Source of the DNA: Candidatus Binatia bacterium
GTDB taxonomy: Bacteria > Vulcanimicrobiota > Vulcanimicrobiia > Vulcanimicrobiales > Vulcanimicrobiaceae
Direction of reading: 5' to 3'
DNA: 64,000 bases
Assembly (NCBI GenBank): GCA_035544215.1
Contig: DATKHY010000007.1
Location: 1-64,000, forward strand
The translations under genes and the position numbers were made by a program. Of the stretch, positions 45,764-47,467 are shown one piece after another; position 1 is the stretch's first letter; each line of letters starts with the position of its first letter. Under the pieces are notes generated by a model. That model saw only the letters and a list, made by a program, of their open reading frames with translations, had not been told where the DNA came from and ran no database searches.

Positions 45764-46426
45764 ATGAGCCTTGATCCGATTGCGTCTCGCCTGGCCGCCG
45801 CGGGGGCGGCGTTCGCTCCCCAGATTGCCGGCGCGGCGCAGCGGCACGAAATCGATCCCGCGCTCCTGGCGGCCGTGGCGGCCCAAGAGACGGGTGGCCC
45901 CGGCGCCAACGCCGGCGCCAATATCATCGGCGACGGAGGTCACGGTCGCGGGCTCTTCCAGATCGACGACCGCTGGCACGCCTTCGCCTCGACTCCGGCC
46001 GCCATGGACCCCCAGAAAAACGCCGATTACGCCGCCGGCATGCTCTCCGGCTTACTCAAGCGCTACGGCGGGAACGTGCGCGAGGCGTTGTCAGCATACA
46101 ACGCCGGCTCGCCCACCGCGACGGGGACGAAGACTCGCTGGGCCGACGGCAGCGACCTTTCGTATGCGGACTCCGTGCTGCGCCACTACAAGCTCCTGAG
46201 CGGCGGATCGCAGCCGCGCGTCCAGATCGACGAATCGCCGGAAGCATCGGCGATCGCGGAGTCCGGCGCCACGATCGCATCCATCGGCTCGCTGCGCGCA
46301 CACGCACAACTCATGCCGATGCCGCCGCCGCCCATCGCGAGCCCCCCGCGATCGCACGCCTACCATCGGCAGGCGACCGACTACCAACAGTTTTTCAACG
46401 ACGACACCGACGAGACAGCCTCGTAG
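45764..46426 (+). CDS. Lysozyme-like lytic transglycosylase with operon-specific C-terminal tail
   Basis: A 220-aa protein. The SLT/lysozyme-like domain (about residues 20-145) has the catalytic Glu42 in AAQETGGPGAN, GHGRGLFQIDDR (60-70) and AYNAGSPTATG (111-121). There is no signal peptide, so it either leaves the cell through a dedicated route or acts after lysis. Residues 170-213 form a proline-rich tail that aligns without gaps with the C-terminus of the next protein (20 of 44 identical, ending Q-x-T-D-Y-x-Q-F). First of four tightly spaced genes. Similar small peptidoglycan-cutting enzymes accompany secretion machines and phage tails, but no such machine is recognisable here. Confidence 0.82.
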   Translation: MSLDPIASRLAAAGAAFAPQIAGAAQRHEIDPALLAAVAAQETGGPGANAGANIIGDGGHGRGLFQIDDRWHAFASTPAAMDPQKNADYAAGMLSGLLKRYGGNVREALSAYNAGSPTATGTKTRWADGSDLSYADSVLRHYKLLSGGSQPRVQIDESPEASAIAESGATIASIGSLRAHAQLMPMPPPPIASPPRSHAYHRQATDYQQFFNDDTDETAS

Positions 46427-46441
46427 AACAGGAGAAACACC

Positions 46442-46732
46442 ATGTCATCCTTGCCTCCAATCGAAGGCAGCGTCGCGGCCAAACCTTTCATGCCACTGAG
46501 CGGCACCGTGCGCGGTGCATGCCAAGCCGGAACCGTCTCAGGCGACACTGGCGACTCTCCCGAAAGCGCGGCGCTGGCCGAGTTGAACGGGCTCATCTCA
46601 TCGCTCGGCTCGCTGTCGGCGCAGGCGCAGAGCCTGCCGCTTAGCCCGCCCACGCTGCCTGTGCTGCCGCAAGGCCAGAACTATCGGCCGCAGACGACCG
46701 ATTACACCCAGTTCGCCGACGATTCGAACTGA
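46442..46732 (+). CDS. Small protein sharing a C-terminal tail with the lytic transglycosylase
   Basis: A 96-aa protein of no recognised family. The ATG has AGGAG at good distance, 15 nt after the previous stop. The N-terminal half is low-complexity (Gly, Ser, Thr, Ala). Residues 51-94 align without gaps to 170-213 of the upstream enzyme: the I-x-S-x-G-S-L-x-A-x-A-Q helix, a proline stretch, then Y-x-x-Q-x-T-D-Y-x-Q-F and an acidic end. The shared tail suggests that both bind the same partner or carry the same export or assembly signal. There is no signal peptide and no membrane segment. Confidence 0.72.
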   Translation: MSSLPPIEGSVAAKPFMPLSGTVRGACQAGTVSGDTGDSPESAALAELNGLISSLGSLSAQAQSLPLSPPTLPVLPQGQNYRPQTTDYTQFADDSN

Positions 46733-46750
46733 TCGCAAAGGAGCGACGTC

Positions 46751-47083
46751 ATGGCATTTTTGCTTCCGATCCTCGAGGGGGTCGGCTCCGGACTTCTCGG
46801 TAACGCGATCGGTGGCGCGGTCGGCTCCGGCGTAGCCGGCAACGCGCAGAACGCTGCGATGAACGCGCTCAACACCCAAGACGAAACCTTCCAGCTGGGC
46901 ATGTACGCGTCCGAGATCCAGAATCAGGAGCAACTGCAGATGCAGTCCGAGGTCTTCGATCAAATGATGGACGAGCGCAGTGAAAACATGCGCGAGGTCG
47001 ACACGCTGCGCAACGTCGACATGGCGCAGCGCAAAATGGACGACTCCATCACCAAGAAGTTCATCCAGTCGATCACCGAGTGA
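46751..47083 (+). CDS. Small helical protein with glycine-rich N-terminus
   Basis: A 110-aa protein. AAGGAG precedes the ATG. The N-terminal 35 residues are glycine/alanine-rich and hydrophobic (FLLPILEGVGSGLLGNAIGG), possibly membrane-inserting or assembly-prone. The rest is a long charged helix. Residues 68-108 align without gaps to 49-89 of the next protein, with 18 of 41 identical and a common ending D-x-I-T-K-K-(F/W)-I. I do not recognise the family. Its size and layout resemble secreted helical needle or filament subunits, but that is only a resemblance. Confidence 0.72.
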   Translation: MAFLLPILEGVGSGLLGNAIGGAVGSGVAGNAQNAAMNALNTQDETFQLGMYASEIQNQEQLQMQSEVFDQMMDERSENMREVDTLRNVDMAQRKMDDSITKKFIQSITE

Positions 47084-47352
47084 TGAACGCGCCGGTCCTT
47101 CCGGTTCGTTCCGAGCGCACGACGGCGCCGCGCGGCTCCCCGGTCGCGCAGCGCGGCAGCGCGGAGAAAGCGCCCGAGCCTCCTGCGGATCCCGAGCTGC
47201 AGGCCCAAGTCGCGGCGCAGCGCCAGGCGTTCGACTACGAGACGGCCGAGCGAGCCGAGATCGTGCGCGAGCACGAGGTGCTCGAAGCGCTCCTCATGGC
47301 GCACCTCAAGAACGAAGACGAGATCACCAAGAAGTGGATCGCGCTGATTTGA
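47083..47352 (+). CDS. Small helical protein paralogous at its C-terminus to the upstream gene product
   Basis: An 89-aa protein. The ATG shares its A with the upstream TGA (TGATG), so translation is coupled. The N-terminal 45 residues are Pro, Arg and Ala-rich and probably disordered. Residues 49-89 form a charged helix homologous to the C-terminus of the previous protein and end directly after ITKKWIALI. The gene ends the operon, 38 bp before tRNA-Ile. Function unknown; a structural or chaperone partner of the 46751-47083 protein is the simplest guess. Confidence 0.7.
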   Translation: MNAPVLPVRSERTTAPRGSPVAQRGSAEKAPEPPADPELQAQVAAQRQAFDYETAERAEIVREHEVLEALLMAHLKNEDEITKKWIALI

Positions 47353-47390: not shown

Positions 47391-47467
47391 GGGCCGTTAG
47401 CTCAGCTGGTTAGAGCGCATGCTTGATAAGCATGAGGTCCCTGGTTCGATCCCAGGACGGCCCACCA
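47391..47467 (+). tRNA. tRNA-Ile (anticodon GAT)
   Basis: A complete cloverleaf: acceptor GGGCCGT/ACGGCCC, D-arm GCTC/GAGC, anticodon stem CATGC/GCATG enclosing TTGATAA (anticodon GAT), and T-arm CCTGG TTCGATC CCAGG. The discriminator is A and CCA is encoded. It stands alone rather than in an rRNA spacer. Confidence 0.96.

Follow-up and report, generated by a model that had tools for sequence, protein, structure and literature searches.

A lytic transglycosylase and its small neighbour share a C-terminal tail in an operon of Eremiobacterota, possibly tied to a flagellum-like type III secretion system

Two proteins encoded side by side in Candidatus Eremiobacterota, a lytic transglycosylase (LT) and a small protein without an enzyme domain (S), share a C-terminal tail of 57 residues, which is best read as a docking, export or chaperone site. 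They belong to an operon of four genes, found in a 64,000-nucleotide stretch of DNA (hereafter the window) from a genome of 3.23 Mb (G000). The operon tends to be broken where the flagellum-like type III secretion system (T3SS) of these bacteria was lost or damaged. For this reason we tentatively consider that its products serve the T3SS as accessory parts or cargo, independently of Sec. The link between operon and T3SS is moderately supported.

The four genes, LT, S, A and B, lie in this order on the + strand (45764-47352), between divergent DUF177/rpmF/fabH genes on one side and a tRNA-Ile (47391-47467) on the other. The start context of S is good in the window, and the ATG of B and the stop codon of A overlap. 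The features are:

45764-46426, + strand: LT, lytic transglycosylase of 220 aa, Pfam SLT domain (PF01464, E 2.9e-12)
46232-46402, + strand: shared tail in LT (residues 157-213), 26/57 identical to S; helix (159-183), Pro-rich part, YHRQATDY and acidic end, a low-confidence helix plus coil in the model
46442-46732, + strand: S, 96 aa, its C-terminal 57 residues repeating the LT tail
46553-46723, + strand: shared tail in S (residues 38-94), from the LT-S alignment
46751-47083, + strand: A, 110 aa, the best conserved of the four, with a Gly-rich N-terminus and a long helix at the C-terminal end
46925-47074, + strand: segment of A (residues 59-108) in common with B, 21/50 identical
47083-47352, + strand: B, 89 aa (90 from an upstream GTG), the C-terminal halves of B and A being homologous
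47200-47349, + strand: copy in B (residues 40-89) of the segment shared with A
Contig C4 of the same genome (G000:C4), 105292-117583: T3SS operon, also carried by relatives

Searches of Pfam and PHROGs gave no confident match for A, B and S. No signal peptide was evident on any of the four proteins; inspection of the N-termini of LT and S revealed no hydrophobic leader, as the original prediction had claimed for these two. The catalytic domain of LT spans approximately residues 1-145. The glutamate of its QETGG motif (E42), the putative catalytic residue of the SLT domain, is invariant in 21 relatives. The model of LT had a pLDDT mostly >80 across residues 1-150, and the folds nearest to it were those of goose-type lysozymes and of MltF/Slt, with a best E value of 1.3e-3. 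The model of A, with a low confidence (mean pLDDT 64), showed a single long helix preceded by a short one at the N-terminus. It gave no structural matches in the fold search, and a PDB sequence search with A was also empty.

The core unit of the operon is LT-A-B. These genes, adjoining DUF177/rpmF, were found in this order in most of family f1. In the one genome examined from family f2 we found A-B, and in family f3 only A was recognized. A was present in 97 of the 149 genomes of the phylum. The module-type LT occurred in most of f1, but not in G022, G028 and G039, where A directly follows DUF177. S was confined to the genus of the window and was kept in all its genomes with a readable locus, while the outgroup genera had a single tail, on LT. 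The LT tail of G030 reached 53 bits against the S profile, about equal to the better LT tails within the genus. S thus looks like a free-standing copy of the LT tail, made in the window's genus. The original prediction had suggested that LT and S may be partners delivered or assembled together, and in this respect it has to be modified: judging by its distribution, S is a genus-level copy of the tail and not an ancient partner, and in other lineages the core A-B pair does without the tail.

Similar copying is apparent in the other half of the operon. None of 5000 shuffles reached the similarity between A (59-108) and B (40-89), and the A profile matched B with an E value of 3.4e-6. It seems that the operon grew through the copying of C-terminal segments, with B resembling the end of A, and S the end of LT. 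In the simplest history, A would have come first, followed by B from the end of A, then by LT, and last by S from the LT tail. A second tail-only protein was found in G133. There, a 124-aa non-enzyme with an LT-tail-like end (L193, G133:C10 276659-277033) takes the place of LT before A and B, indicating by its sequence that tail-like proteins lacking the enzyme have originated twice. A 51-aa S-like ORF in G060 was rejected as an S gene, because it is the LT's own tail after a frameshift.

The genome of the window has a single FlhA-type export gate. Its T3SS operon encodes flgB-like, flgC, fliE, fliF, fliH, fliI, an LT of its own, x187, flgE/F/G-like, x266, fliN, fliP, metF, fliQ, fliR, flhB and flhA. 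No hook, flagellin or motor genes were recognized in this locus. LT is on contig C7 and the T3SS on C4; hence, the module lies outside the T3SS locus, and no promoter motif common to the module and the T3SS operon was evident by eye. In the open literature searched, we found no paper describing a T3SS of Eremiobacterota.

Several peculiarities of the T3SS locus were recorded. The FliF-like protein (G000:C4 115300-116772, L043) ends with a match to the FliG middle domain (PF14841, E 7.7e-6), as if FliF and a part of FliG were fused. A metF-like gene (G000:C4 109316-110215) lies between fliP and fliQ in the T3SS operon of family f1. In G061 this position lacks it, and in G026, G029 and G030 it has unrelated genes as inserted neighbours. 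In several genomes of the genus the operon is flanked by a divergent gene (G000:C4 117758-118966), present in two copies in G003 and G014. Its product is probably a secreted protein, with a Pro/Tyr-rich stretch (YPNYQWTPGYW).

Export gates related to that of the window's genome (46-93% identical) were almost universal in families f1-f3, and therefore the presence or absence of module and T3SS says little. The simple co-occurrence of A with the T3SS was rejected as evidence for the same reason, and also because many absences of A are assembly gaps: in G005, G015, G021, G023, G059, G038, G115 and G134 the locus was at a contig end or unassembled. Damage to the two loci was more informative. Only readable loci were counted, and G021, G051 and G115 were left unscored, as the module locus was at a contig end or unassembled. 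Where the T3SS was lost or broken, the module was broken in four of five genomes; where the export gate was intact, it was broken or altered in 2 of 57. The Fisher p value was 1.3e-4 (4.4e-4 and 2.6e-4 with stricter counts), to be taken as a guide only, with hand-curated lists, the T3SS scored solely from FlhA in the majority of the 57 genomes, and low-quality assemblies able to mimic frameshifts. The co-occurrence with secretion genes, a check proposed with the original prediction, was thus uninformative as presence and absence; the damaged cases suggest shared decay.

The damage took different forms. G114 and G060 had neither FlhA nor FliP. In the LT of G114, a stop replaces the Trp of FQIDDRWH; in G060, LT carries a frameshift and a recombinase element divides A. 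Most of flgC to fliP is gone from G014, where flhB and flhA are broken as well and an element cuts A. In G008, flhB and x266 are split, and all that is left of the module is a shortened LT together with a remnant of B. G042 has no T3SS, yet LT, A and B are open frames. In its A, a nearly invariant Leu has become Pro (L86P); in the genus of G042, A is strongly constrained. In the T3SS-less genomes of genus g26 there was no rate signal of relaxed selection, the sole changes being this L86P and the LT stop of G114. The two altered modules among the 57 genomes were those of G009 (insertion in A) and G133 (LT replaced).

The T3SS-operon LT was not found in the otherwise readable operons of G011, G029, G035, G031 and G020, all of which carry the module LT. 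Conversely, the T3SS-operon LT is present in G028, G039, G061 and G133, which are without the module LT. None of the genomes with both loci readable was without both LTs. This pattern, not significant by itself, is suggestive of one job shared by the two enzymes.

Mobile elements interrupt A repeatedly near 47034-47043 (codons 95-98; L046, L052, L057, L159). Insertions at nt 284-292 of the gene were found in G060, G010/G014 and one IMG/VR contig, so that codons ~95-98 look like a recurrent integration site. In G060, the recombinase ORF of the element ends in the displaced C-terminus of A. The insertion in G009 is at a separate site (nt 182, L049). Remains of another A gene, decayed and covering residues 24-63, were found at G000:C1 184303-184401 (L117), ~200 bases after a 129-aa Gly-rich ORF (183709-184098) with GVLQQLMQMLQSLM. 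The truncated LT of G008 (L188, G008:C26 7419-8459) runs into a short collagen-like repeat, KGDKGDKGDMGDMGDMG.

We propose the following working of the operon. All four proteins would leave the cytoplasm, and since the module is damaged where the T3SS is damaged, the flagellum-like T3SS is their most likely route. LT would be a second peptidoglycan cutter for the T3SS, opening the wall for the machine. A and its shorter paralogue B would form the conserved core, which is helical. It is probably exported and may serve the T3SS as a distal part, either structural or active on membranes. The tail of LT and S, with its helix, Pro-rich linker and aromatic/acidic end, may bind a chaperone or dock on a common partner, S being a free tail copy from a duplication within the genus. 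Against a T3SS accessory speak the place of the module outside the T3SS operon with no evident common promoter motif, the open LT, A and B of G042, and the nature of the damage to A in G060, G014 and G009, where element insertions could have struck by chance. A bolder version, in which A and B form the outer structure or translocon of an undescribed filament-less flagellum-derived T3SS and the tail of LT and S is the docking signal, is doubtful. If true, the enzyme can be accompanied by a tail-only protein or, as in G133, give way to it.

Alternatively, the module could be independent of the T3SS, as a domesticated phage-ejection or holin-endolysin-like unit. A would perturb the membrane and let LT reach the wall, and S and B would be helpers. 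The main fact in favor is the module kept by G042 without a T3SS. The Gly-rich hydrophobic N-terminus and long helix of A fit as well. A also matched the family of the T7 gp14 internal virion protein (PF24072, E 0.0041), but with 17.5 bits this match is below the Pfam cut-off of 27. At the domain level LT matched transglycosylases of phages and an internal virion protein that has an endolysin domain; however, no relatives of LT were found in 50,697 phage records. Relatives of A in viral contigs were absent outside integrated elements, the sole viral-contig match being a host gene cut by such an element. With the phage and viral searches negative, a phage origin of the operon was rejected. No phage structural genes adjoin the operon within the window, the module occupies the same chromosomal place across the family, and its damage tracks that of the T3SS. 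We consider this explanation unlikely, and weaker than that of a T3SS accessory.

With respect to the tail itself, the original prediction had counted 20 of 44 identical residues without a gap between LT 170-213 and S 51-94. Our recount gave exactly this number, and the match extends further: the Smith-Waterman alignment joined LT 157-213 with S 38-94 without gaps (26/57 identical, score 135). With S as a query, the LT tail of the same genome was found with an E value of 6.7e-11, and in 98 relatives the matches were S itself and LT tails. The S profile matched LT tails with E values down to 5e-18. In the 149 genomes of the phylum it recognized the LT and S of the operon plus one marginal match outside of it (G126 C43, E 0.002), so that the tail is nearly confined to these two proteins, and the wide presence in unrelated proteins that would speak against the original prediction was not observed.

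Within the genus, pN/pS was lowest in residues 46-110 of A (0.05), followed by B 39-89 (0.15), A 1-45 (0.18) and the LT catalytic domain (0.23). The S tail had 0.36, the LT tail 0.50 and the S N-part 0.66, the highest value in the operon being 0.76 for the B N-part. The S tail is thus more constrained than the rest of S and is under purifying selection. In the S of G011 (L044), the N-part lies in frame upstream of the start taken in the alignment. These values bear on the possibility that the S tail is a duplication relic without own function, with S a by-product and LT acting alone. The restriction of S to one genus would agree with a relic, as would the occurrence of LT-A-B without S in other genera, the faster evolution of the S and LT tails compared with A and the catalytic domain, and the open module of G042. 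Against a relic speak the stronger constraint on the tail of S than on its N-part, the retention of S in all genomes of the genus in which the locus can be read, its good start context in the window, and the tail-like protein without enzyme in G133. This explanation, too, is weaker than that of a T3SS accessory, and we regard it as improbable.

In the model of LT, the tail lies outside the folded enzyme as one helix (159-183) plus coil, with a pLDDT of 48-65; LT and S are thus predicted to have a disordered C-terminal region in common. The module may also be part of the T3SS with the tail acting outside the cell, as a structural or wall-targeting element. This would suit a Pro-rich, acidic and mostly disordered tail, as predicted, and an enzyme that has to remain close to the machine it serves. 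Nothing specific speaks against it, and the data do not separate it from a chaperone site, but we give it little weight. The docking or export signal suggested in the original prediction stood as the best reading, because the tail is nearly confined to the operon, constrained in S, predicted to be a helix plus disorder, and arose again in G133. A similarity by chance or low-complexity composition, conceivable for tails rich in Ala, Ser and Pro, is refuted by the profile E values, by the near-confinement to two genes, and by shuffling of S, in which 0/5000 sequences reached the score of 135, either globally (28.8 ± 5.4) or inside 10-residue windows that keep the local composition (41.6 ± 9.1).

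The operon resembles several known systems. Like the T7 ejection proteins gp14/gp16, A is a small Gly-rich helical protein encoded beside a transglycosylase; unlike them, it is below the Pfam cut-off, has no phage context and is vertically inherited at one chromosomal place. EtgA, IpgF and FlgJ are lytic transglycosylases dedicated to T3SS or flagella. LT is likewise an SLT-type wall cutter, apparently tied to type III export. It differs from them in being encoded far from the T3SS operon, which usually has its own LT, in having no evident signal peptide, and in the C-terminal tail that it has in common with a non-enzyme. The operon is a compact test case for a shared export or docking tail. 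In flagella, the chaperones FlgN, FliS and FliT bind their export substrates at disordered C-terminal regions, and FlgN serves both FlgK and FlgL (PMC8527033). By analogy, LT and S would be two different proteins with a predicted disordered C-terminal region in common; unlike FlgK and FlgL, they have no D0/D1 domains, their tail is a recent duplication and its partner is putative. In the scheme of Abby and Rocha, FlgB, FlgC and FliE are flagellum-specific, and the NF-T3SS of Myxococcales are without them (PMC3459982). The Eremiobacterota locus is similar to the latter in that it encodes an export apparatus while hook, filament, needle and secretin were not recognized in it, and differs in keeping FlgC, FliE, an FlgE/F/G-like protein and an FlgB-like gene. 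Because it keeps these rod genes, we call this T3SS, known here from its genes alone, flagellum-like. If the link to the operon is true, LT, S, A and B are candidates for the exported parts of a secretion system that is flagellum-like, apparently lacks a filament and spans a largely uncultured phylum.
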